A stretch of 64,000 nt of DNA from Acidobacteriota bacterium (GTDB taxonomy: Bacteria; Actinomycetota; Acidimicrobiia; Acidimicrobiales; Microtrichaceae). The notes under the pieces were generated by a model. It worked only from the letters and a program-made list of their open reading frames with translations. It had not been told where the DNA came from and did no database searches. Both the position numbers and the translations under genes were made by a program. Positions within the stretch are counted from its first letter, which is position 1. Each line of letters begins with the position of its first letter. Location: contig QEUP01000009.1 in assembly GCA_003577145.1 (NCBI GenBank), positions 1 to 64,000 on the forward strand. The letters are read 5' to 3'. Shown one piece after another: positions 48,085 through 60,542 of this stretch.

Positions 48085-49215
48085 TCAGCACGGCAGCTCC
48101 CCCCGCCGGAGCTTGCCGAGAGTTGTCCGTGGCAGGGCGTCGACCAACAGCAGCTCCTTCGGAGCGGAGTAGGCGGGTAGGCGCTCTTTCACCAGCCGGC
48201 GCAGATCCTGCAAGCGAGGGGGTGACCGAGGATCCTGGGGGACGACCATGGCGACGACGCGCTCTCCCCACTCCTCATCGGGACGGCCGACAACAGCCAC
48301 GTCGCGCACCCGGGGGTCGCTTCGTAGAACCTCCTCGACGGGCTGGGGCCAGACGTTCTCCCCGCCGGTGATTATCAACTCGTCAGCGCGGCCCTCGACG
48401 ACGAGTCGCCTGTCGCCGGCAGCGAGATGGCCGACGTCGCCGGTCCGGAACCAACCGGCACTGTCCTTCGGATCGGTACCGTCGCGGTAGCAGCGCAGGA
48501 GGGTGTGGGATCGCACGAGGATCTCGCCCGGGGTCGGGCCGGCGGATCCGATCCGCACCTCGACCCCGTTCAGGGGGAGGCCGTCATAGACCACCCCGCT
48601 CCCGGTCTCGGTCATGCCGTAGCTGGCAACAGTGTTGACGGGACGGTCCTCAGGAATCGCCGAGCCACCCAGGAGGATCCGTACGAACAGGGAAGGATCG
48701 ATCCTGCGTAGCATGGTCGGAACGAGTGATATGTGCGTCGAACCGGCTCGGGCAGCCGCCTCGACACGCGCGGGATCGAAGCTGGGATGCACCTCTAGCT
48801 CGGCTCCGGTGATGAGCGCTCGGGTGACGACCGACAGGCCGCCGATGTGGTTGAGCGGCAGGCACGCCAGCCAGCGAATGGCTGGCGTGACTCCCAGAGC
48901 AGTGGTAGTGGCGTAGGCCGACGCTTCCACGGCTTCACGGGTGAGCACCACCCCCTTGGGCTGCCCGCCTGCGCCGCTGGTCGCCACCACGAGGGCATCG
49001 TCGGGCTCCACGGGAACGGGGTTCCCACAAGCCGACTCCTCACCGGTGCCGTCCATCACGCGAGCTGGGCTGAACGCGTTCAGCAGTTCGGAGACCACCC
49101 GGCGCGGAGCGCGCGGGTCCAGGGGCAGTACGGCATCACCGCGCAGCCAGATCTTCTCTAGCGCACGCACGAAGCCAGGCCCGCCCTCCATGTGCAGGGC
49201 GACCAGATCGGGCAC
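48085..49215 (-). CDS. menE: o-succinylbenzoate-CoA ligase
   Basis: A 376-residue adenylate-forming enzyme that activates o-succinylbenzoate with CoA. TSGAGGQPKGVVLT is the P-loop-like motif, CLPLNHIGGLS, ASYGMTETGSG, GWFRTGDVG and the C-terminal TTLGKLRR (catalytic Lys) follow. The short N-terminus is like other actinobacterial MenE proteins. The GTG at 49215 lies in a 34-base repeat. Nearby menA and menH support the name over a generic acyl-CoA ligase. Confidence 0.85.
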   Translation of the reverse strand: MPDLVALHMEGGPGFVRALEKIWLRGDAVLPLDPRAPRRVVSELLNAFSPARVMDGTGEESACGNPVPVEPDDALVVATSGAGGQPKGVVLTREAVEASAYATTTALGVTPAIRWLACLPLNHIGGLSVVTRALITGAELEVHPSFDPARVEAAARAGSTHISLVPTMLRRIDPSLFVRILLGGSAIPEDRPVNTVASYGMTETGSGVVYDGLPLNGVEVRIGSAGPTPGEILVRSHTLLRCYRDGTDPKDSAGWFRTGDVGHLAAGDRRLVVEGRADELIITGGENVWPQPVEEVLRSDPRVRDVAVVGRPDEEWGERVVAMVVPQDPRSPPRLQDLRRLVKERLPAYSAPKELLLVDALPRTTLGKLRRGELPC

Positions 49216-49239
49216 GCTCGGAGCCTAGTGGCGAGGGTG
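49206..49239. repeat. 34-base repeat, copy over the menE start
   Basis: GATCGGGCACGCTCGGAGCC and the following bases to GCGAGGGTG match the copy at 49272-49305 in about 30 of 34 positions. On the minus strand it contains the menE GTG start and first codons. Confidence 0.7.
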
Positions 49240-49271
49240 CTGCGGCTCTGGCCGGCGACCTCACCCTCCAC

Positions 49272-49305
49272 GATCGGGCACGCTTGGAGCCGGATGGCGA
49301 GGGTG
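49272..49305. repeat. 34-base repeat, upstream copy
   Basis: Second copy, 66 bases upstream of the menE start copy, between the divergent menE and menA genes. On the minus strand it carries a decoy GTGCCCGATC start-like sequence. The spacer and copies look like a local tandem duplication. Confidence 0.7.
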
Positions 49306-49350
49306 GGTGATACTCGCGGTCGTGCACTCGGATGTGGTTGACACGGCGCC

Positions 49351-50250
49351 ATGAACCGCTGGCTGGTCGGAGCACGGCCCCGCACCCTTGCCGCAGCGCT
49401 CGTACCTGTCATGGTGGGAACCGCGGCGGCCGCAGGTCTGAATCAGCCCGGAACCGGCTGGGCCAAGGGGATCATCTGGTGGCGCGCCGGTTGCGCGCTC
49501 GTCGTCGCGGTGGCGGTACAGGTTGCCACCAACTATGCCAATGACTACAGCGACGGCATCCGGGGTGTCGACAGCGAGGATCGGATCGGACCGGCCCGGC
49601 TGGTCGGCTCCGGCTTGGCTACCGCCGCGGAGGTGAAGCGGGCGATGATCGCGGCCTTCGCGGTTACCCTCGTCGCTGGCACGCCACTGGTCCTGGCGGT
49701 GGGCTGGGAGCTGGTAGCGGTCGGTGTTGCGGCAGTGGCCGCGGGCTGGTTCTACACGGGTGGCTCGCGGCCCTATGGCTACGCAGGCTACGGTGAGGTC
49801 TTCGTCTTCGTGTTCTTCGGGCTGGTGGCAACCGTCGGCTCCACCTATGTCCAGGTCGAGGCCGTCACCGCCCTGTCGTTGCTGTGCGGGGTGGCGGTGG
49901 GTTCGCTGTCCACGGCACTGCTGGTGGTGAACAACCTCCGTGACATCCCCGGCGACTCCAGGTGCGGCAAGCGAACCCTGGCCGTGAGGATGGGGGAGAA
50001 CCGGACCAGGATCGTCTACACCGGATTGATGGTGGTGCCGTATCTGCTGTTGCCGTTGATCGCCGGCGTCTACGCCCGCCCGGTCGCCGCTGCAGCCTTC
50101 GTGGTGATCCTGCCGGCGCGCCGACCGGTCCTGCGTGTGCTGGAAGGTGCCGTAGGCCCGGACCTGATCCCGGTCCTGGGCCAGACCGGCCTGGTCCAGT
50201 TGGCCTTCGGTGTCACGCTTGCCACCGGCCTGTGGCTCTCGGCGCCGTGA
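49351..50250 (+). CDS. menA: 1,4-dihydroxy-2-naphthoate prenyltransferase
   Basis: A 299-residue UbiA-family membrane enzyme that attaches the isoprenoid chain to DHNA to give demethylmenaquinone. RWLVGARPRTLAAALVPV, the first Asp-rich motif NYANDYSDGIRGVD and the second region NNLRDIPGDSRCGKRTLAVR are visible; about nine membrane helices. The ATG at 49351 lies just after the menE/menA divergent region. Confidence 0.93.
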   Translation: MNRWLVGARPRTLAAALVPVMVGTAAAAGLNQPGTGWAKGIIWWRAGCALVVAVAVQVATNYANDYSDGIRGVDSEDRIGPARLVGSGLATAAEVKRAMIAAFAVTLVAGTPLVLAVGWELVAVGVAAVAAGWFYTGGSRPYGYAGYGEVFVFVFFGLVATVGSTYVQVEAVTALSLLCGVAVGSLSTALLVVNNLRDIPGDSRCGKRTLAVRMGENRTRIVYTGLMVVPYLLLPLIAGVYARPVAAAAFVVILPARRPVLRVLEGAVGPDLIPVLGQTGLVQLAFGVTLATGLWLSAP

Positions 50251-50266
50251 GCTGACCTCCAGGCGA

Positions 50267-51058
50267 TCAGAGGCCGTTGTCCTGGAGCCAGGGGACCACC
50301 GCAGCGAGGAAGCCGCCGGGGTTCTCCAGGTGAAGCGCGTGCCCGGCACGGGGTACGGCTCGGTACTCGGCGTTGCCCCCGATCGTGTCAGCCATCTCCC
50401 GGCCGAGGGCCGAGAACCGCTCGTCGCGTTCGCCTGCCAGGACGAGGACCGGCATGGCGAGTCGGCGGAGAGCTTCCCAGAGCGGCGCCTGGGTGCCGGT
50501 TCCCGCTTCGCGCAGGCTCGCCGCAAGGGCCAGAGGGTCGTTCCGGTGGCGTTCCCGGAGTGCGGCTCGCTCGGCTGGGAGCTGGGCGAACAGCGGTTGG
50601 GCGAGCCAGCGGTCGAGAAAGGTGTCGATCCCCTCGCTCTCCAACAACTCAGCCCAGCTCTCGTCGAGGGCGATCCGTTCCGTTCTCTCAGCCTCGCTAC
50701 GCAGGCCGGGTGAAGCTCCGATCAGCACCAGCCCCCGAACCCGGGAAGCCCCGTCGGCAAGTGCCGCGTGCAGGCACAGGCGCCCACCCATGGAGTAGCC
50801 GACGTAGGTAGCGACACCGCCGGTAGCGAGGAGAAGCCGCCCTGCTTCTTCGAGACCGGCGCCAATGGTGCGGGATGCTCCGTGGCGGGGCGCGTCGACG
50901 AGGACCAGCTCGTGGGATGTCGCCAACGGATCTGCTAGAGCGTCCCAGACCCGCCGGGTCTGGGTGAACCCGTGCACCAGCACCAGGCGAGGGCCGCCGC
51001 CGCAGATCTCATGAGCCAAGCGCGCGGGGTCTCCCGCGGTCACGGAATCGTGCAGCAC
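50267..51058 (-). CDS. menH: SHCHC synthase-like alpha/beta hydrolase
   Basis: A 263-residue alpha/beta hydrolase from the GTG at 51058; the frame continues upstream through the divergent lipoprotein gene, so longer versions are unlikely. LVLVHGFTQTRRVWDAL is the oxyanion region, VGYSMGGRLCLHAAL holds the nucleophile Ser, VLAGERDERF the Asp and RAGHALHLENP the His. LIGASPGL and DRWLAQPLFAQLP are MenH-like features. It would remove pyruvate from SEPHCHC made by MenD. The name rests on sequence flavour plus men neighbours. Confidence 0.78.
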   Translation of the reverse strand: MLHDSVTAGDPARLAHEICGGGPRLVLVHGFTQTRRVWDALADPLATSHELVLVDAPRHGASRTIGAGLEEAGRLLLATGGVATYVGYSMGGRLCLHAALADGASRVRGLVLIGASPGLRSEAERTERIALDESWAELLESEGIDTFLDRWLAQPLFAQLPAERAALRERHRNDPLALAASLREAGTGTQAPLWEALRRLAMPVLVLAGERDERFSALGREMADTIGGNAEYRAVPRAGHALHLENPGGFLAAVVPWLQDNGL

Positions 51059-51158
51059 GTCGGAGATCCTAAGCCTGGGCCATGTGGCTGGTCCTCGTGT
51101 CCGGTCCCGGACACCGCCGACCTGCCACGCAACGAACGAACGTTTATTGTCCACGGCC

Positions 51159-52325
51159 ATGCGGCGAGCGATGGGTGATCGGCAGTATCGGCTCCATGTT
51201 GCGCTGGTGCTCGGGGTGGTGGTCCTGTCGGTTGGCGCATCCTGCTCGGGCGGCGACACCGCCGGCGACGACTCGGGTGACGCAGGCGGTGGGCAAGGTG
51301 GTTCCGGGGAGGAGAGCATCGCCGTCAGCGTCGTGTTGCCGGAGCATCCCTACTGGTCCAACGCGGTGATCGTCGAGGATCAGGAGCTTCTCGACCGTCT
51401 CGCCGGTGAGTACGCCGCCCAAACCGGTGCGGCCACCGCGGCGGAGGTCGACGTGGCCCGATTCCTGTTCGGCTGGGTCCCGGTTCGGCTCTTCGATGCC
51501 ATCCTGGCAGGAGAGCTGCCCGAGGAGGACACCGGAGGCGCGCTCTGGGCGTTCCACCTGTCGGGCTACTACGGCGGGAGGTGGCTGCGCGACGAGATCA
51601 GCGCGGCCCAGCCCGACTCGATGATGGCCCGTTACTCGATCGAGCCGACCGAGCAGGGGTTCGCCCGGACGGTGGCGTCGGTCGAGCGCGGGCTTGCCGC
51701 TGCGGCGGGAAGCGACGAAGCGGTTCTCAGCCACTCGGAGTACCTGCTCTTCGAGGCCCCGGTCCTGGCCGGCGAGGACAGCCTGTTGTCGATCATCCCC
51801 TCCGGCCTGGTGAGCAACTTCGGGTACAACCAGGGCTACTACCTCGAGATCCTGGCGCACCCACCCGCGGGCGTCGCCGGCCCCGAGCAATACGCCGTGA
51901 CCTGCAATGGGCCCCTCTCGTGCGAATACCAGGAGCCGAAGCTCGCCGCGCTGGACTGGCTGCACCCGGTCGAGGTTGCCCTGGCCGACGGGGCCGACCC
52001 TGCCTATGCGGAGCTGGGGGACCGGATCATGCCGTTGCAGGAGGCGGCGGTACCGCTCGGTCGAGCGGTCTGGAGCATCGGGCTGTCGGTGGAGGGCTTC
52101 ACGCAGGAGGCCTATGACCGGTTGCTCGACATCAGCTCCTCCTACCTCGAGGACGTGCAAGCGGCGGGCCTCGCTGCCAGCAGGGTCATCGCCGAGCACG
52201 ACGTGGAGCTCGGCCGGAGGGTAGCAGTGGCCGGCGCAGCCATGGACGTGTGGCTGAGCGGCTACTTCGTCGGGCTGCTCGACTCCGGCGACGGGCCCAC
52301 GCTGCCCGAGTTGAGTGAGGGGTGA
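51159..52325 (+). CDS. Predicted lipoprotein of unknown function
   Basis: A 388-residue exported protein. The signal peptide HVALVLGVVVLSVGASC ends in a lipobox with Cys29, followed by a Gly/Asp/Ser-rich linker. The mature part (from about residue 55) is acidic, mostly helical in look, with motifs PEHPYWSNAVIVEDQELLDRL, HLSGYYGGRWLRDEI and LVSNFGYNQGYYLEILAHPP. I do not recognise the family. Start at 51159; the ATG at 51171 is an alternative. Its last 64 bases overlap the end of the FtsH-like gene on the other strand. Confidence 0.75.
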   Translation: MRRAMGDRQYRLHVALVLGVVVLSVGASCSGGDTAGDDSGDAGGGQGGSGEESIAVSVVLPEHPYWSNAVIVEDQELLDRLAGEYAAQTGAATAAEVDVARFLFGWVPVRLFDAILAGELPEEDTGGALWAFHLSGYYGGRWLRDEISAAQPDSMMARYSIEPTEQGFARTVASVERGLAAAAGSDEAVLSHSEYLLFEAPVLAGEDSLLSIIPSGLVSNFGYNQGYYLEILAHPPAGVAGPEQYAVTCNGPLSCEYQEPKLAALDWLHPVEVALADGADPAYAELGDRIMPLQEAAVPLGRAVWSIGLSVEGFTQEAYDRLLDISSSYLEDVQAAGLAASRVIAEHDVELGRRVAVAGAAMDVWLSGYFVGLLDSGDGPTLPELSEG

Positions 52326-54661
52326 CCTGGGTCGAGCCGCCGGTTGCCCTCGCTGCTGGCCACGACGTCGACAAGTCCTGCGCCGACCGGGGTGGGGATC
52401 TCGGGGAGGGGGATCCGGACACCTGTGTGCTCGTCGTGGGCCAGGGCAGCGACGGCGTGGTACTCCTCGGCCAGTTCCCGGAACCGGTCGACGTGATAGG
52501 CGGTGCCGTCGACGAGCGGGCCCGGTACTCCGTCGACGATGGCGGCGATGTCGTCGCCGCTCAAGGTCTTGTGCTTCTCGAGGGCATGTGCGACGGCGAG
52601 TACCTCGAGGCGATGCTCGGTGAGGAGCGCGTCCACCGCTCGGTACAGGCGGGCGAGGTTGGTCTCCACCCGCTCGCCGAGAGAGCCCTCGAGAAGCTTC
52701 TCGGCGTCCTCCTCGGACTTGCCGCTGCCCCCCAAGGAGAGCCCCATCTTCTTGGAGATGGCCTGGGAGGTGATGGTGGCGCCCATGCCGAAGTACCCCT
52801 CCATGTAGGTGGCAAGCTGAGTCGCCCCTTCGAGGTCGGCAGCGACTCCTGAGGAGTTGTCGCCGTTGAAGAACATCCGCTCTCCGGCAAGAGATGCCAG
52901 GGCGACCATGATGTCGGCCTCGAACTCGGACCGCCATTGGGTGTGCTGGTCCTCGGGCAGTACCGAGCTGACCATGCCGAGGTAGTTGCCGCCCTTCTCG
53001 ATCGTGGCGAGGTCTATGCGTGCGTGGCGCCGGAGGAAGTAGGCGGCGATCGCGTGGCTCGCCTCGTGCACCGCCACCGCGTGACGCTCGCGCTCGATGT
53101 ACTCGACGTCCTCGGGAGGCCCGAGATCCTTGAGTCGTTTCGCTTCGAGGATGTCCTCCCAGGTGATCGCATCGCGATCGTGGCGGATGGCGTTGATCAG
53201 CGCCTCGTTCACCAGATCCTTGATCACAGCTCCCGTTGCGAAGGGAGTCATCGTCGCCAGCTTGTCGACGTCGTTGTCGTCGAGGTCGTGTTGAACCTTG
53301 CTCAAGTAGCCACGGTAGGTGCGCTTGCGGCCTTCCTTCGAGGGATAGCCGACCTTGTACGTGCGGTCGATTCGGCCCGGCCTGAGCAGCGCCTCGTCCA
53401 GTGCTTCGGGCATGTTCGTCGCCATCATGATCAGGATCCGGTACTTGGGTGGGGGCTTCGGGCGCATGCCCAGGGCTCGCCTCACGTGACGGTTGAGGAT
53501 TCCGCGGGGCTTCTTGAGGCCCGACATCTCCGAAAGGAGAGCCTGGAGGGTGCCCGAGCCGCCGCCTCCTCCCATCATGAACCGGTTCTCGATGCGACCC
53601 GCCGGAGCTGTGGCATCCGTTGCACCGCCGGAGTGCCCCAGCAGGAGGTGTCTCGTGCTCGGTGAGAACCAGCGGGAATGATCCGACCAAGGGCTCGACG
53701 TGCCCTGGCCGAGCGTCACGCCGGCCAGTTGGCCGCGGTTTCCCAGGGAGTCGGCCTCATCGAGGAACATGATCACACCGCCGTAACGGAGTGCCAGGCG
53801 CCGGACCTTGCGGAACAGCCCCTTGACCTTCATGACCCCGACCCCCATGAACATGGATTGGAAGGCACCTGGGTCGACGAACACGAACGGCCTTCCCGTC
53901 TCGCCGGCCACTGCCTCGGCGATCAGTGTCTTGCCGGTTCCCGGCGGTCCCCAGAGGAGGATGCCACCGGGCACGAAGCCGCCTCGCTCCTCGATGCTCT
54001 CGGGATCCTCGAGGAACACCATGTTCTCCTTGACGCGCTCGAGTACCGCATCCTGGCCCCACACGTCGCCGAACCTGGTGTCGATGTCGTCAGGGAAGTA
54101 GGTGTCGACCCCGCCGCGTGAGAGGAACCAGAACAGGCCGACGAACTGGAAGATCAAGAAGAACGGCGCGAGCGCATACTGGAGGATGGTCGGCAGGTGA
54201 TCGACGAGGCGGTACGGCAGCTCGAACAGTGCGGTGAGCGGGCTCACATCGAACACCGCTCCGAGGACGACGCTGAGCGCTCCTAGCACCGCCAACGCCT
54301 TGAGCAGGCGGGCCAGCCGGTACCTGCTCCACGGGTCCATCCGGTCGAGACGGGCTTCGGCTCGACCGAAGATCGAGCGCTTCCAGAACGCGTAGTAGGT
54401 GGGGTTGCTCTCGGTCAGCACGAAGTGGAGCTGGCGAACCAGTTCGAGTCCGAAGAGGACCACCAGCCAGCGGTTGTTCATGGCGGTGTCGATGATCGAG
54501 TCCTGGAACGCCTTGATCGGGCTCCCACCGAAGTCGGCGAGCACGAGGAACAAGAAGGCGATGGCAATGAGGACCAGGAACTTCACCCGGTCCCACCAGG
54601 CCATGGGTTTGCGGAGCTCAGCAGGCGCCGCGCCCGGGTCCACGCTCGTCTTGGATGCCAT
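52262..54661 (-). CDS. FtsH-like membrane AAA+ zinc metalloprotease with AAA-domain insertion
   Basis: A 799-residue protein. About four N-terminal membrane helices (residues 28-44, 65-82, 122-138, 164-180) are more than FtsH usually has. The AAA domain has Walker A GPPGTGKT (238-245), Walker B MFLDEAD (298-304) and arginine-finger region RPGRID (427-432). The Walker B to RPGR distance is about 125 residues, roughly 60 more than in E. coli FtsH; the extra part is Gly/Ser/Pro-rich (about 305-405). The protease domain has HEASH (532-536) and the third zinc ligand in SSGVAADLEGATQLA. The Ser/Pro-rich C-terminus is disordered. The ATG at 54661 lies two bases after the upstream lipoprotein stop. 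It probably degrades membrane proteins, but is not standard FtsH. Confidence 0.87.
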   Translation of the reverse strand: MASKTSVDPGAAPAELRKPMAWWDRVKFLVLIAIAFLFLVLADFGGSPIKAFQDSIIDTAMNNRWLVVLFGLELVRQLHFVLTESNPTYYAFWKRSIFGRAEARLDRMDPWSRYRLARLLKALAVLGALSVVLGAVFDVSPLTALFELPYRLVDHLPTILQYALAPFFLIFQFVGLFWFLSRGGVDTYFPDDIDTRFGDVWGQDAVLERVKENMVFLEDPESIEERGGFVPGGILLWGPPGTGKTLIAEAVAGETGRPFVFVDPGAFQSMFMGVGVMKVKGLFRKVRRLALRYGGVIMFLDEADSLGNRGQLAGVTLGQGTSSPWSDHSRWFSPSTRHLLLGHSGGATDATAPAGRIENRFMMGGGGGSGTLQALLSEMSGLKKPRGILNRHVRRALGMRPKPPPKYRILIMMATNMPEALDEALLRPGRIDRTYKVGYPSKEGRKRTYRGYLSKVQHDLDDNDVDKLATMTPFATGAVIKDLVNEALINAIRHDRDAITWEDILEAKRLKDLGPPEDVEYIERERHAVAVHEASHAIAAYFLRRHARIDLATIEKGGNYLGMVSSVLPEDQHTQWRSEFEADIMVALASLAGERMFFNGDNSSGVAADLEGATQLATYMEGYFGMGATITSQAISKKMGLSLGGSGKSEEDAEKLLEGSLGERVETNLARLYRAVDALLTEHRLEVLAVAHALEKHKTLSGDDIAAIVDGVPGPLVDGTAYHVDRFRELAEEYHAVAALAHDEHTGVRIPLPEIPTPVGAGLVDVVASSEGNRRLDPGHPSLNSGSVGPSPESSSPTK

Positions 54662-54663
54662 CT

Positions 54664-55365
54664 CTAGTTCTCCCCGAGGGTCCATGAGGAGAAGATCCCG
54701 TCGATCTGCCCCTCGTTCTGTGAATAGCAGGCCGAGCTGCACTGCATGACCAGGCGGTACATCTGGGTGGTCGCCGGATCGAGCATCGCGAGTTGGTCGA
54801 TCGTCAACGGACCGTTCTCGCTCTGCACTGCCAGGATCATCCGACTGCCCCGGAAGCCGTCGGCGTTGGTGATCTCCTCGTAGTACGAGACCGTCACATC
54901 GTCAGACGTCTCTGCCAACTCGAAGGGATCACCCTGGTCGTCGAGGGCGGCGGCCCGCAGGAACTCGAAGTTGACGATGTCTCTGTCGTCGGCGTCCAAG
55001 GGCTTGATCTCGGCAAACCCTGCCGGGTGGGCCGGATCGGGATGACCGAAGTTGCCGGGTGAGGGCTCGGGTCCACCGTCGATGAACTCTATCCACTGAC
55101 CGGACTCGCCGGACTCGGTCCTGGCGTCACCGGTGAGCTCCACCGGGAAGCTCTCCCAGGTTTCGGGGATCTTCAGGAACAGTCGCTCGTCGCGGTTCTC
55201 GACGTACTCGTATCCGCTACCGCACGACGCGCCAAGTGCTGCCACCACGGCGACCGCCGTGACCAGCTTCCCCCGCCGACTCCGCCAAGTCCCTTGCTCG
55301 CAGCGATGTCGGTTGATGGACGTATTGTTCCGAACTCCGGGGCGCGTTCCAACGACCCCGGGCAA
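54664..55365 (-). CDS. Predicted lipoprotein upstream of the FtsH-like gene
   Basis: A protein of up to 233 residues. KLVTAVAVVAALGASC is a lipoprotein signal ending at Cys48. The mature part (ERLFLKIPETWESFPVELTG, GFRGSRMILAVQSENGPLT, QCSSACYSQNEGQIDGIFSSWTL) looks like an alpha/beta domain of the LpqN/PsbP-like type; this is inference. The only standard start in frame is a TTG at 55365, which gives an unusually long 33-residue region before the signal helix. It ends two bases before the FtsH-like start, so the two form an operon. Confidence 0.7.
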   Translation of the reverse strand: MPGVVGTRPGVRNNTSINRHRCEQGTWRSRRGKLVTAVAVVAALGASCGSGYEYVENRDERLFLKIPETWESFPVELTGDARTESGESGQWIEFIDGGPEPSPGNFGHPDPAHPAGFAEIKPLDADDRDIVNFEFLRAAALDDQGDPFELAETSDDVTVSYYEEITNADGFRGSRMILAVQSENGPLTIDQLAMLDPATTQMYRLVMQCSSACYSQNEGQIDGIFSSWTLGEN

Positions 55366-55455
55366 ACCCTAAAAGGTCTAAGTAGGGCTTAAAGGGTCTG
55401 TCGCCGTTCGTGGTGATGGCCGGTACTTCAGCCGCAACCGGTCGACACCGGGTGG

Positions 55456-56742
55456 TCATTCCTCTCCGAGCCCCGCGGCCGCAGCCAGGGTCATGGCCGT
55501 GACTATCCCGTCGAACTGCTTGCCCTTGCCGGTGCTGTGCGGGGATGTGTCGACGTCAGTGGCCTGGCCGCGAAGCGCCGCGACGGTTGCGTCTTCACGG
55601 CTCACGTGAACGAAGGGATCGTATTGGAACCACCGCATGGCATTGCCGTGGGTGATCTTGTCGATCTCCTCCCGCGGGAGTCCTTCGAGATAGCGCATGA
55701 CAGCCTCCGGAGCGCCAGGCCATACGGAGTCAGAGTGCGGGTAGTCGCATTCCCACGCGATGTTGTCGCTGCCGACCTGGTCCCTGATCCTGATCCCGGT
55801 GGCGTCGTCGATGAAGCAGCAAAGGACGTGCTCGCGGAACACCTCGCTGGGCAACTTGTCGCCGAAGTCCTGGTTCGTCCAGGCGCGGTGGTGTGAGTAC
55901 ACGTAGTCGACCCGCTCGAGGAAGTAGGGGATCCAGCCGATCCCACCCTCCGACAGGGCAACCTTCAGATCTGGGTACTTGCGGAGCACCGGTGACCACA
56001 GCAGGTCCGCGGCGGCTTGCACGATGTTCATCGGCTGGAGCGTGATCATGGCGTCGATGGGTGCCTCGATGGAGGTGATCACCACCTGCGACGACGACCC
56101 GATGTGGAGGCAGACCACTGTTGCGCTGTCGGAGCACGCCTTCCAGAACGGGTCCCAGTGCTCACTGTGGAAGCTGGGGAAGCCCAGCTTCTCGGGGTTC
56201 TCCGAGAAGGTGATCGCATGACAGCCCTTGGCTGCTACGCGCAGGACCTCCTCGGCCATCAGCTCGGGGTCCCAGAGCGGCGGGAGCGCGAGAGGTATGA
56301 ACCGTCCCGGGTAGGCGCCGCACCAGTCCTCGATGTGCCAGTCGTTGTAGGCCCTCAGGACGGCCAGCGCTAGCTCCTTGTCCTCCGCTCGTGCGAAGGT
56401 CTGGCCGCAGAACTGGGGAAACGAAGGGAAGCACATCGACCCGAGCAACCCGTTGACGTTCATGTCGCGGATCCGTTCATGGATGTCGAAGCAGCCCGGC
56501 CGCATGTCCTCGAAGGAGGTCGGATCGATCCCGTACTCCTCTGGCGGCCGGCCCGCGACCGCGTTGAGCCCGATGTTGGGCAGCTCCGTGCCCTCGAAGA
56601 GCCAGACATCGGTGCCGTCGACTTTGTGGACCACCCGCGGGAACGCCTCGGCGAGGGCAGCCGGCGTCCTTCCCTCGAAGAGGTCTGCGGGCTCCACCAC
56701 GTGGTCATCGACGCTGACGAGGATCAGCTCTTCGGGCTTCAT
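55456..56742 (-). CDS. Amidohydrolase family 2 (ACMSD-like) protein
   Basis: A 428-residue TIM-barrel metal hydrolase. LVSVDDHVVEP supplies the first metal ligands, VVCLHIGSSS a further His, KVALSEGGIGWIPYFLERVDY the central region, and NIAWECDYPHSDSVWP the metal Asp. Relatives include decarboxylases acting on aromatic or CoA-linked acids. The ATG at 56742 follows GGGGGAACGAG; the upstream extension is not supported. Divergent from menD across 104 bases. Confidence 0.87.
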   Translation of the reverse strand: MKPEELILVSVDDHVVEPADLFEGRTPAALAEAFPRVVHKVDGTDVWLFEGTELPNIGLNAVAGRPPEEYGIDPTSFEDMRPGCFDIHERIRDMNVNGLLGSMCFPSFPQFCGQTFARAEDKELALAVLRAYNDWHIEDWCGAYPGRFIPLALPPLWDPELMAEEVLRVAAKGCHAITFSENPEKLGFPSFHSEHWDPFWKACSDSATVVCLHIGSSSQVVITSIEAPIDAMITLQPMNIVQAAADLLWSPVLRKYPDLKVALSEGGIGWIPYFLERVDYVYSHHRAWTNQDFGDKLPSEVFREHVLCCFIDDATGIRIRDQVGSDNIAWECDYPHSDSVWPGAPEAVMRYLEGLPREEIDKITHGNAMRWFQYDPFVHVSREDATVAALRGQATDVDTSPHSTGKGKQFDGIVTAMTLAAAAGLGEE

Positions 56743-56846
56743 CTCGTTCCCCCGGGTCTGAGAAGACGTGTGCGTCCACCCTAACCTGACACTGCCGTCA
56801 GGTTCCACGGGGCACCCGCGGGCCGGGGCTCGTATGCTGCGCGAGG

Positions 56847-58586
56847 ATGGTTACCGAAGCGGCGACCTTCTGCCGGACACTCGTCGAGGAATGGGTCCGA
56901 CTGGGTTTGACCGACGCGGTGGTGTGCCCGGGCTCCCGCTCCGCTCCGCTGGCGCTGGCTCTCGACGAGGACCGGCGCTTGCGCACCCATGTGCACCAGG
57001 ACGAACGCTGCGGCGGATTCATGGCTCTGGGGCTCGGTCTGGCCTCGGGTCGTCCGGCGGTCGTGGTCACGACGAGTGGGACAGCCGCGGTGGAGCTTCA
57101 CCCGGCGGTGGTGGAGGCTCACCAGGCCTGCGTACCGCTGATCGCCTGCACGGCTGACAGGCCACCCGAGCTGCACGGCGTGGGCGCGCCCCAGACCATC
57201 GACCAACGGGATCTGTTCGGGCGGGCGGTGCGGTGGTTTGCCGATCCCGGCCCACCCAGCAGGCAGCAACGGGACAGATGGCGGCCGCTGGCGGCGCGGG
57301 CGGTGGCCGAGGCCACCAGCAGCCCGCCGGGGCCGGTGCACCTCAACCTCGCCTTCCGCGACCCGCTCGTCGGCGAGGCCGGGCCGGTCCCCGAGGAGCG
57401 CCCGGTGGAGCTGCGCGAGCTGATCACCCGTCGTCCAGGTGGGGATCTGCCGGCTCACAAGGTGGGCGAGCTCGTCGAAGTGCTAGGTCACTCGAGAGGG
57501 GTGATCGTTGCCGGGGTTCGCACCGTAGGGGACCGCCACGGCACGGCGGCAGTGCTGGCACTGGCCCAGCAGCTGGGATGGCCGGTCCTGGCCGATCACC
57601 AGAGCGGATGCCGGGTCCCGGATCCGTCTACTGTCAGCGCCTTCGACGCGCTGCTCCGTGTCACCGACTTCGCCGACCGTCATCGACCGGAGGTCGTGTT
57701 GCGTTTCGGGGGACTGCTCACCTCGCAGGCCCTCAACGAGTGGCTGGCAGGCTGCCCCGCCGAACAGATCGGCGTCGACCGCTACGGGCAGTTCGCCGAC
57801 CCCGAACGCAGCCTCGACCAGAGGATCACCGCCGATCCGGCCGCCGTGTGCCGGCAGCTCCTCGATCATGCCCACGAGGGCCACTCATCGCCTGCCTGGG
57901 TCGCCTCCTGGCAGCAGGCGGAGGCCGCCGCCGTCTCGGCGCTGGATGCCGTTCTGGGGGCCGCGGGTGAGATCAGCGAACCGGGTGCTGCTCGCGACCT
58001 GCTGGCCGCCATGCCTGCGGGTTCCTCCCTGGTCGTGTCGTCCTCCATGCCTGTGCGTTACCTCGAGCGTTACGGCCGGCCGAGGTGGGGCTGCCGTGTC
58101 CTGTCGAACCGCGGCGCCAACGGCATCGACGGAGTGCTCTCCACGGCACTCGGTGTGGCCGAGACGGGAGTGCCGACCGCCGCTCTGCTCGGGGACTTGG
58201 CGTTCCTGCACGACAGCAACGCACTCATCGGTGTGGCCGGCCGGCGTGTCGACCTGACCGTGGTGGTGATCGACAACGATGGCGGCGGCATATTCTCCTT
58301 CCTTCCCCAGGCGACCGCCGTTGCTCGACCGCGGTTCGAGAAGCTGTTCGCCGCACCGCACGCAGTCGACCTGTGTGGGCTGGCCGATGGCTTCGGTGCA
58401 AGGGCGCTGATGGTCTCCGACACCGATGCTTACCGCCAGGTGCTCGGTCGACGGTTCGACAGCCAGCCAGATGGCGGGCCCGACGTGATCGTCGTCGAGA
58501 GCGACCGCACACGTAACGCGGCGATCCACCGGGAGTTGAACCGAGTGGTGGAGGAGGCCGTGAAGGAGGCCCTCACGGCTGGATGA
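56847..58586 (+). CDS. menD: SEPHCHC synthase
   Basis: A 579-residue thiamine diphosphate enzyme that joins 2-oxoglutarate and isochorismate. VVCPGSRSAPLALAL is the N-terminal signature with the conserved Glu region in HQDERCGGFMALGLG. VVVTTSGTAAVELHPAVVEA is typical. NRGANGIDGVLSTALGVA and the following GDLAFLHDSNAL (diphosphate-binding) and VVVIDNDGGGIFSFLPQ complete the cofactor domain. Its end overlaps the convergent menF by 14 bases. Confidence 0.95.
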   Translation: MVTEAATFCRTLVEEWVRLGLTDAVVCPGSRSAPLALALDEDRRLRTHVHQDERCGGFMALGLGLASGRPAVVVTTSGTAAVELHPAVVEAHQACVPLIACTADRPPELHGVGAPQTIDQRDLFGRAVRWFADPGPPSRQQRDRWRPLAARAVAEATSSPPGPVHLNLAFRDPLVGEAGPVPEERPVELRELITRRPGGDLPAHKVGELVEVLGHSRGVIVAGVRTVGDRHGTAAVLALAQQLGWPVLADHQSGCRVPDPSTVSAFDALLRVTDFADRHRPEVVLRFGGLLTSQALNEWLAGCPAEQIGVDRYGQFADPERSLDQRITADPAAVCRQLLDHAHEGHSSPAWVASWQQAEAAAVSALDAVLGAAGEISEPGAARDLLAAMPAGSSLVVSSSMPVRYLERYGRPRWGCRVLSNRGANGIDGVLSTALGVAETGVPTAALLGDLAFLHDSNALIGVAGRRVDLTVVVIDNDGGGIFSFLPQATAVARPRFEKLFAAPHAVDLCGLADGFGARALMVSDTDAYRQVLGRRFDSQPDGGPDVIVVESDRTRNAAIHRELNRVVEEAVKEALTAG

Positions 58587-59826
58587 GGGCGGTCAGCAGC
58601 GGCTTCAGCTTCGCCCGGGTCTCCGCCAACTCGACCAGCGGGTCACTGTCGGCTACTACGCCCACCCCCGCGAACAGATGTGCCCGTCGGCCCTCGATCT
58701 CGGCGCTGCGAATGCCCACAGCCCACTCACCGAACCCGTTCCGGTCCACCCAGCCGACAGGACCTGCGTAGCGGCCCCGATCGAGGCCCTCCAACTCGAG
58801 TATCAACGCGCGGGCGGCTGAACGGGGTGAACCGCACACTGCCGGTGTGGGATGCAGCGCCGCCACCATCTCTGTCACCGCCGGGGCTGGGCTCGAAAGC
58901 CGGCCCTCGACGAGGCTGGCGAGATGCGACACGTTGGCCATCGGAACGACCGACGGCGAAGGTTGGTAGTCGAGGTAGGAGCACCAGGGCAGGAGCGTGT
59001 CGTGGACCATGTCGATGGTGATCTGGTGCTCCTTCCTGTCCTTCGGGGATGCCAGCAACTCCGCCGCCCGTTGCGCGTCGGTCCCGGGATCTCCTGTATG
59101 AGGAATGGTCCCGGCCATGGGGTGGGCCCGCACGACGTCGCCCACCCTCGACACGAGCAGTTCAGGGCTCGCCCCCACGAACCCCTCGATGCTGAAGAGG
59201 TAGCAGCCAGGGTAGGACTGCCGGAGCTCGCCGAGGACCGCCGCGAGAGGGATTGGGCCGTCGGCGCTGACCGTCACGCGGCGCGCCAGCACCGCCTTGT
59301 CGATGGCTCCGGACCGGACTCTCGCCCGGACCTGCACCACCAGTTCGCACCAGGCCTCAGCGGGGGTGGACGCAGCCACCTCGTATCGGGAGGGGAGCGA
59401 TCGGCCGGGCAACTCGACGCGGGGCGGCCGGACAGGAGCGGCAGCCGCCGGGTCGAGCGTCGTTCTCCAGCGGGCGCCGTCGTGGGACTGCCCACGGATC
59501 TCTGCGGGGACCACCAGTGTCGCCGGCGCGTCCGTGTCGAATGGGAGAGCGCCGAACGCAACCGGACCGCGACCCGGTGAGGTGGGATCTGCATCGGGGG
59601 CGATGTCGGCCCCTATGGCTGCGAGAGCCGCCGGGATCTCAGAGATGTGATCGGTCCAGGGCGGCGGCAGGTCTATCCGTTGAGCCAGCCCTCTTCCCGC
59701 CAGCGCGCGCTCCGGACCGGCGAACAGGACCCCGTCGTGGGCGGCGAACTCGACCATGTCGGTATCTACGTCCGCTGCGGAGGTGCGTGCCCGCAGCTGG
59801 GTGGACGGATCGGGCGGCTGGTTCAT
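58573..59826 (-). CDS. menF: Isochorismate synthase
   Basis: A 417-residue chorismate-utilising enzyme. KAVLARRVTVSADGPI, YLFSIEGFVGASPELLVSR, VRAHPMAGTIPHTGD, ALHPTPAVCGSPR and GWVDRNGFGEWAVGIRSAE are the isochorismate synthase signatures. Chorismate to isochorismate is the first committed menaquinone step. The ATG at 59826 overlaps the menG stop by four bases. A salicylate role (EntC-like) is possible, but convergent menD and upstream menG favour MenF. Confidence 0.92.
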   Translation of the reverse strand: MNQPPDPSTQLRARTSAADVDTDMVEFAAHDGVLFAGPERALAGRGLAQRIDLPPPWTDHISEIPAALAAIGADIAPDADPTSPGRGPVAFGALPFDTDAPATLVVPAEIRGQSHDGARWRTTLDPAAAAPVRPPRVELPGRSLPSRYEVAASTPAEAWCELVVQVRARVRSGAIDKAVLARRVTVSADGPIPLAAVLGELRQSYPGCYLFSIEGFVGASPELLVSRVGDVVRAHPMAGTIPHTGDPGTDAQRAAELLASPKDRKEHQITIDMVHDTLLPWCSYLDYQPSPSVVPMANVSHLASLVEGRLSSPAPAVTEMVAALHPTPAVCGSPRSAARALILELEGLDRGRYAGPVGWVDRNGFGEWAVGIRSAEIEGRRAHLFAGVGVVADSDPLVELAETRAKLKPLLTALIQP

Positions 59827-60542
59827 TCCCCTGCCTTTGCACGGGTTCTGGTCGCGGTGATGAGCTGAGCAAGCCCCGCGGTCAGGAGTCGCTGCTCGAC
59901 CGCCATGAAGCCCGAGTCCCGGATCATTCCCAGCAGGCGTTCGGCCGGAGGCAGGTAGGCAACGGACCGGGGGAGGTAGCGGTAGGCGTCGGCGTCCGAC
60001 AGGAGTCCACCGAGTCGTGGGACAACATGCCCGAAGTAGAGCGAGTGACCCCGACGAAGAAGGTCATTCGACGGCTCTGCCACCTCCAGGAGAGCGATCC
60101 TTCCACCGGGCCGGACGATCCTGGCCGATTCGCGGAAGAACTCGTCGAGGTCGACGAGGTTCCGCAGAGCGAAGCCGCAGGTCATCCCTGTCACGGAGCC
60201 GCCGGGCAGTGGAAGTCGCAGAGCGTCGGCTTGGATCAGGCCGGTCCGGGTGTGGGCAGACCGGAGCATCCCCAGCGAGAGGTCGCAACCGACGGGGCGG
60301 TAGCCGGCACGGATGAGCTCCCGGCACAGGTCACCTGTGCCACAGGCGATGTCGGCGACACGCGAGCCGGGCCGAACCGCCAGTGCGGCGACCGCGCGGC
60401 GACGCCAGCCGACGTCGAGGCGGAAGGTCATGAGCCGGTTCAGCAGGTCGTAGCGGGGGGCGATCGAGTCGAACATCCCCCGTACCGCTCGGACCTTCTC
60501 GTCTCCCTCGGGTAGCCGGTCACCGGCGATTCCGTGGGACAT
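59823..60542 (-). CDS. menG: Demethylmenaquinone methyltransferase
   Basis: A 239-residue UbiE/MenG methyltransferase that makes the last step to menaquinone. VRGMFDSIAPRYDLLNRLMT is the N-terminal signature, VADIACGTGDLCREL the SAM loop, and MTCGFALRNLVDLDEFFRES the second signature. The ATG at 60542 shares one base with the acetyltransferase stop. The frame runs on upstream within that gene, but the MSHGIAG start is typical in position. Confidence 0.93.
   Translation of the reverse strand: MSHGIAGDRLPEGDEKVRAVRGMFDSIAPRYDLLNRLMTFRLDVGWRRRAVAALAVRPGSRVADIACGTGDLCRELIRAGYRPVGCDLSLGMLRSAHTRTGLIQADALRLPLPGGSVTGMTCGFALRNLVDLDEFFRESARIVRPGGRIALLEVAEPSNDLLRRGHSLYFGHVVPRLGGLLSDADAYRYLPRSVAYLPPAERLLGMIRDSGFMAVEQRLLTAGLAQLITATRTRAKAGE

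Follow-up and report, generated by a model that had tools for sequence, protein, structure and literature searches.

A four-helix M41 protease distinct from FtsH and its adjoining lipoprotein gene form a candidate membrane proteolysis pair in Actinomycetota

The window analysed here is a stretch of 64,000 nucleotides from an actinomycetotal genome assigned to the Microtrichaceae (assembly GCA_003577145.1, contig QEUP01000009.1, positions 1 to 64,000). Its minus strand carries a gene for an AAA+ zinc metalloprotease of peptidase family M41, which we refer to as F0, directly preceded by a lipoprotein gene, F1. Judged by its score against the FtsH model, its lack of an FtsH_ext domain, its number of helices and its place in the tree, F0 belongs to M41 but not to FtsH proper. 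A sequence-only reading of this DNA had placed the protease gene at 52262-54661, and these coordinates are correct, with the ATG at 54661 and the stop codon ending at 52262. The features of the two genes are as follows, in the order of transcription.

54664..55365, minus strand: lipoprotein gene F1, predicted PsbP/Mog1-like fold (alignment A2 of 38 rows, structure model, Foldseek and VIA-align)
52262..54661, minus strand: F0 protease, an AAA+ M41 zinc metalloprotease of 799 amino acids with four predicted helices (translation, Pfam, 44-member alignment)
54344..54610, minus strand: hairpin of helices 1-2, residues 18-106, best read as an addition (model helices, no F0b match, conservation)
54116..54334, minus strand: helices 3-4, residues 110-182, which share homology with the helix pair of the related family F0b (hhalign, full-profile alignment)
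53927..53950, minus strand: Walker A, GPPGTGKT, residues 238-245 (sequence; invariant in 44 members)
53837..53854, minus strand: pore loop 1, MFMGVG, residues 270-275 (aligns with MFVGVG of FtsH)
53756..53761, minus strand: Walker B Asp-Glu, residues 301-302 (alignments)
53564..53734, minus strand: insertion 1, spanning roughly residues 310-366 of the pore-loop-2 region and rich in Gly, Ser and Pro (length comparison)
53444..53518, minus strand: insertion 2, spanning roughly residues 382-406 ahead of sensor 1, with the sequence KKPRG...RPKPPPKY (32 residues separate the helix end from ATN, 11 in FtsH)
53372..53383, minus strand: arginine-finger motif RPGR, residues 427-430 (alignments)
53054..53068, minus strand: zinc motif HEASH, residues 532-536 (alignments)
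52835..52837, minus strand: third zinc ligand Asp609 (invariant in 44 members; aligned with the Asp of FtsH)

The Walker A, Walker B, RPGRID and HEASH motifs and the third zinc ligand, which the sequence-only reading had described as intact, were all located in the window protease. All 44 rows of the F0 family alignment keep Walker A, the Asp-Glu pair, RPGR, His532, Glu533, His536 and Asp609, and the pore-loop pattern M-F-x-G-[VI]-G is followed by 39 of them, with 5 deviating; in a 72-row alignment Walker B, RPGR, HExxH and the third Asp were present in 19/19 F0 rows. The window protease scored 89 bits against the Pfam family AAA, 31 bits against AAA_lid_3 and 85.3 bits against Peptidase_M41 (PF01434; curated cut-off 29.9), the last of which was matched by all 44 F0 rows at E 0.01. 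It thus has the AAA features by which FtsH is recognized (Walker A and B, an aromatic pore loop and RPGR), and the fold of the F0 model matches FtsH and AFG3L2 structures. Since the catalytic and ATPase motifs are retained across the family, F0 is expected to be an active protease. A chance or frameshift artefact is ruled out, as the reading frame is open, the motifs recur in 44 aligned rows and the AAA insertions occur in all 19 F0 rows that were counted. Identity as a defence-system component was also considered and rejected: the PADLOC matches (IetA, TRIP13) were limited to AAA residues, no search for an IetS partner having been made, and the best stretch against the NCBIfam model IteA_antiphage covered residues 204-308, which we judged to be generic AAA resemblance.

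Against the FtsH equivalog TIGR01241 (NCBIfam) the window protease scored 255 bits, with the cut-off at 600. The two families also differ in the AAA domain. The distance from Walker B to the arginine finger is 126 residues in the window protease and a median of 58 in FtsH, an excess of 68 residues that agrees with the roughly 60 extra residues noticed from the sequence and resolves them into two insertions: about +47 in the pore-loop-2 region, rich in Gly, Ser and Pro, and +21 ahead of sensor 1. On a single 72-row alignment, which also took in F0b and F0c, two related families described below, the medians were 58 for FtsH (57-60, 28 rows), 136 for F0 (126-161, 19 rows), 96 for F0b (93-103, 13 rows) and 90 for F0c (88-90, 10 rows); this count supersedes an earlier regular-expression measurement that had caught only 16/19 F0, 7/13 F0b, 8/28 FtsH and no F0c. 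Between sensor 1 and the helix that follows pore loop 2 the median was 11 residues in FtsH, 32 in F0, 31 in F0b and 42 in F0c. Insertion 2 is therefore common to F0, F0b and, in a longer form, F0c, and unites the three; F0b has a shorter Gly-rich insertion 1, and only in F0 is this insertion long. In the AlphaFold2 model insertion 1 is mostly of low confidence (predicted local distance difference test, pLDDT, below 50 at 311-326 and 345-366). A Cys occurs within insertion 1 (53734-53564 in the window) in 43/44 F0 rows, the window protein being the sole row that lacks it.

The N terminus sets F0 apart as well. FtsH has one or two N-terminal helices according to passages of an FtsH-evolution review (PMC9020784), together with an extracytoplasmic FtsH_ext domain. 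Four helices are predicted in F0, and at E 0.01 none of the Pfam matches of the 44 F0 rows was to FtsH_ext. The sequence-only count of about four helices was borne out by hydropathy peaks at 26-44, 65-83, 119-137 and 163-181 and by an AlphaFold2 model built from 44 sequences (mean pLDDT 81.7) with helices at 22-46, 64-85, 110-137 and 156-182. With a simple hydropathy cut-off, four peaks were called in 25/44 F0 rows, three in 18/44 and five in 1/44. Helices 3-4 aligned with helices 1-2 of F0b (hhalign probability 98.5%, E 1.5e-15), and helices 1-2 gave no profile match to the F0b N terminus (probability 0.35%). Because only helices 3-4 align with F0b, helices 1-2 are best read as an addition confined to F0. 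Helix 2 has conserved residues: Glu73 and Gln77 are present in 44/44 F0 rows, Arg76 in 40/44 and His79 in 41/44.

A sole M41 gene in the organism, or a position inside ordinary FtsH, would have spoken against the proposal of a distinct protease type; neither was found. Three M41 genes are present in the source genome, which comprises 4.05 Mb in 68 contigs: two canonical ones (239 and 229 bits) and F0 (89 bits). Both canonical copies have two hydropathy peaks and an FtsH_ext match, at E 1.9e-4 (scoring short of the curated cut-off) and 2.7e-10. Phytohabitans maris, Pseudonocardia terrae and Frankia gtarii each gave two M41 matches, one of about 240 bits and one of 72-87 bits, which we read as one canonical FtsH plus F0. 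F0 is thus an extra M41 copy in 4/4 genomes checked, these three strains and the source genome; it is not the housekeeping FtsH, and as an extra copy it is probably not essential.

In the main tree (72 rows; 438 columns after removal of sparsely filled columns; bacterial rows only) F0 formed one clade with support of 100/100, and the 28 FtsH rows, including both canonical copies of the source genome, formed another with 100/99. F0, F0b and F0c together made up one branch apart from FtsH (100/97), and F0b alone was supported at 95/70. This branch was retained (100/99) in a tree of the AAA domain rooted on two other AAA proteins. Because this outgroup did not form one clade, the root of that tree is weak, and the tree does not discriminate between a sister relation of the branch to FtsH and a very early offshoot (55/9). 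F0 was likewise separate in an earlier 90-row tree, made before F0b and F0c were added, in which long branches drew it together with two Myxococcota rows. The Myxococcota M41 proteins at L104 and L108 sit on a very long branch and have the pore loop RWVGQS or KWVGES, versus MFVGVG in FtsH.

The gene upstream, F1, ends in a stop codon at 54666-54664, two bases ahead of the protease ATG, just as the sequence-only reading had stated. Its start codon is uncertain in the window, the only in-frame options being TTG at 55365 or an internal GTG; the Cys of the lipobox-like stretch is encoded at 55224-55222. Across the 38 aligned F1 rows this Cys follows a short hydrophobic stretch, Pro20, Trp23 and Gly126 are invariant, and a Cys162/Cys166 pair is nearly invariant, with L125 lacking it. 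The model of the mature domain (pLDDT 91.7) has no transmembrane segment and is predicted to adopt a PsbP-type fold, superposing on 2xb3 with Z 14.7 and a root-mean-square deviation of 3.0 over 144 residues; 2vu4 was matched by Foldseek at E 2e-6. The structural matches comprise PsbP/CyanoP, MTC28, LpqN, Eag chaperones, Mog1 and DcrB. By sequence, two of five lipoproteins scanned gave matches to Pfam PsbP or PsbP_2 below the cut-offs (14.1 versus 23.5 and 13.2 versus 27 bits), and the other three, window F1 included, gave none.

The association of the two genes proved stronger than the claimed adjacency in a single genome. A profile search in all frames of 62 loci, from which 8 double entries were removed and to which Nonomuraea was added, left 55 distinct loci, of which 51 have F1 directly upstream on the same strand. 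The loci without an adjoining F1 are L118, whose contig breaks off at the gene, L144, L151 (identical to L122) and L147; since L147 is F0b, the figure for F0 is 51/54. In a sample of 198 genomes of the order, both genes were found in 29, F0 alone in 3, F1 alone in 1 and neither in 165 (Fisher p 2.8e-30, uncorrected for genome relatedness), so that 29/30 F1-bearing genomes also have F0. The genomes with F0 alone are G004, G036 and G187, in the last two of which F0 lies at the contig start. None of the 24 F0b and F0c loci had F1 in the flanking sequence, which reached up to 1.5 kb; the F0 loci served as positive control. As the genes adjoin in nearly every genome that carries F0, these data suggest that F0 and F1 work together.

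Clustering of the neighbouring genes at 52 loci, in which L044 and L142 are one locus, gave a protease cluster of 48, an F1 cluster of 44 and a next family of 12; the genes were predicted with an in-house script that missed some. That next family is a HemQ/chlorite-dismutase-family gene 3' of F0 (L124, L128, L131, L133 and others of the order). We did not adopt HemQ as an F0 partner; its presence at 12/52 loci may reflect synteny or a heme link. In the window itself the pair lies among menaquinone genes (menE, menA, menH, menD, isochorismate synthase and ubiE/menG, 48088-60542), and these too were set aside as partners because no gene predicted at the remaining 51 loci matched them at E 1e-20 and 60% coverage. 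A further lipoprotein-like gene on the plus strand, at 51084-52325, converges on the 3' end of the protease gene, with an overlap of about 60 bases; it is uncharacterised and has no Pfam or NCBIfam match.

F0 is known so far only from Actinomycetota. A long relative at E of 5e-97 or better was present in 33/198 genomes of the order, the next best match lying at 2e-49; one of the 33, G079 (E 4.7e-97), is F0b, which leaves 32 F0 genomes. At E of 1e-150 or better, matches occurred in 33/247 genomes of the class sample and 21/396 of the phylum sample, these samples overlapping. Named carriers are Phytohabitans maris, Pseudonocardia terrae, Frankia gtarii and Nonomuraea gerenzanensis, the last of which was the one F0 match among plasmid records. 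At least 11 contig loci with F0-like identity (48-60%) bear actinobacterial titles, one of them a metagenome-assembled genome labelled Bifidobacterium breve, perhaps wrongly. No F0 was found at E 1e-100 in 221 genomes of another phylum (centre G756, labelled Chloroflexota), a weak negative since that search had no positive control.

G079 drew attention because its F0-like match had only two helices, and a search for relatives among 296 genomes of the phylum and 198 of the order led to F0b and F0c (L172-L184 and L185-L195). Both are divergent M41 families of Actinomycetota, mostly of two-helix type, with two hydropathy peaks in 12/13 F0b and 7/11 F0c. F0c has Glu-Glu in Walker B in place of Asp-Glu and the pore loop MYYGQT or MFYGQT (10/10).

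We propose that F0 is a protease of membrane quality control and that F1, on the extracytoplasmic side, is the lipoprotein adaptor dedicated to it, a proposition that we hold to be evenly balanced. F0 would be a second, specialised ATP-dependent membrane protease acting on a special set of clients. It would probably assemble as a hexamer, an FtsH-like ring on the cytoplasmic face, and its motifs suggest that the ring could extract membrane proteins through the pore and cleave them at the zinc site. F1 would have its anchor in that membrane's outer leaflet and would stand in for the absent FtsH_ext, its PsbP/Mog1-like domain sensing clients or stress from outside; by engaging the helix 1-2 hairpin it might deliver clients or switch the protease on. 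The fuller form of this proposal, a two-gene proteolysis system of Actinomycetota in which the external PsbP-fold lipoprotein docks on the added hairpin and sets client choice or activity, we rate a little short of even. In favour of the proposal, relatives of the F1 fold include the Eag chaperones, whose co-crystals contain transmembrane helices of clients; these chaperones grip such helices by mimicking helix packing (PMC7773334).

Several observations weigh against this proposal. A PsbP fold in common demonstrates no function. The F0 genes at L144 and L151 have no such lipoprotein upstream, L151 having by eye an unrelated lipoprotein-like gene, and G136 (87% complete) carries F1 with no F0 detected. 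The F0 and F1 distance matrices correlate at r 0.59 (33 loci), as expected from shared species history alone, and a scan of 54000-56000 for sigma-70-type promoters and simple terminators found neither in support of a shared transcript. The solitary F1 of G136 (L169:4005-4664) lies, by eye, between a tryptophan-synthesis-like and an HU-like gene. Those same unpaired genes would suit a reading in which F0 and F1 are transcribed together in one envelope-stress response and never touch. We consider this unlikely, because the pair persists while its neighbours change and no other family reaches more than 12/52 loci, a pattern that general co-regulation would rarely yield.

An operon-like order with the F1 gene first fits equally well with F1 being a client or product of F0, a regulated substrate whose amount the protease controls, and the tandem F1 duplicates in L138 and L139 can be taken in its favour. 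Mature F1 should, however, lie across the membrane from the protease domain, and its model offers no transmembrane segment for F0 to pull on, so that its degradation would need extraction by way of the lipid anchor or turnover before export; the F0-specific hairpin, moreover, occurs where the pairing occurs. On balance we doubt that F1 is a client, to about the same degree as we doubt mere co-regulation. Least probable of all, and in our view very improbable, is that F0 is a drifted paralog of ordinary FtsH that does redundant housekeeping beside the two canonical copies. The identical domain order, AAA then M41, and the 55/9 support in the rooted AAA tree leave some room for it, but a drifted copy sits poorly with insertions in all 19 F0 rows, the added hairpin, the missing FtsH_ext, a clade supported at 100/100, the equivalog score of 255 against 600 and the occurrence of F0 in addition to canonical FtsH in all four genomes examined. 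An adaptor role for F1 remains the reading that we prefer.

To our knowledge, how M41 proteases choose their membrane clients is an open question, because recognition by FtsH is diffuse and its regulators vary by lineage. An extra-copy protease with one partner encoded next door makes client choice testable with two genes. Divergent M41 branches are present in Actinomycetota, and if the reading of F0 holds, then F0, F0b and F0c taken together would make M41 a group of proteases broader than FtsH. None of the papers listed in searches of the open-licence full-text literature was on the F0 family or the F0-F1 pair, subscription journals lying outside that coverage, and the string 'actinobacteri' is absent from the main text of the FtsH-evolution review (PMC9020784).

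Set beside known systems, F0 is like FtsH (TIGR01241; bacterial, i-AAA and m-AAA) in its domain order, Walker A and B, the pore loop M-F-x-G-V-G, RPGR, HExxH plus Asp, and fold. It is unlike FtsH in its four predicted helices rather than one or two, the absence of FtsH_ext, the two AAA insertions totalling 68 residues, its separate clade and its paired lipoprotein. F0b and F0c share with F0 the one branch (100/97) and insertion 2, and F0b also shares the helix pair adjoining the AAA domain and a shorter Gly-rich insertion 1; both differ from F0 in having mostly two hydropathy peaks and no lipoprotein within up to 1.5 kb at their 24 loci. F1 resembles PsbP, CyanoP, LpqN, MTC28, DcrB and the Eag chaperones in its predicted fold, yet differs from PsbP/Mog1-fold proteins in a sequence identity of about 10%, the nearly invariant Cys162/Cys166 pair and the link to a protease gene. 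The closest parallels to the proposed F0-F1 partnership are HflK/HflC, named as FtsH partners in passages of PMC9020784, and the rhomboid YqgP, presented in parts of PMC7231995 as a membrane partner that serves as an FtsH adaptor. In each case a membrane partner regulates or feeds an M41 protease, as F1 may do for F0; unlike HflK/HflC and YqgP, F1 is a lipoprotein, has a different predicted fold and is encoded next door to its protease.

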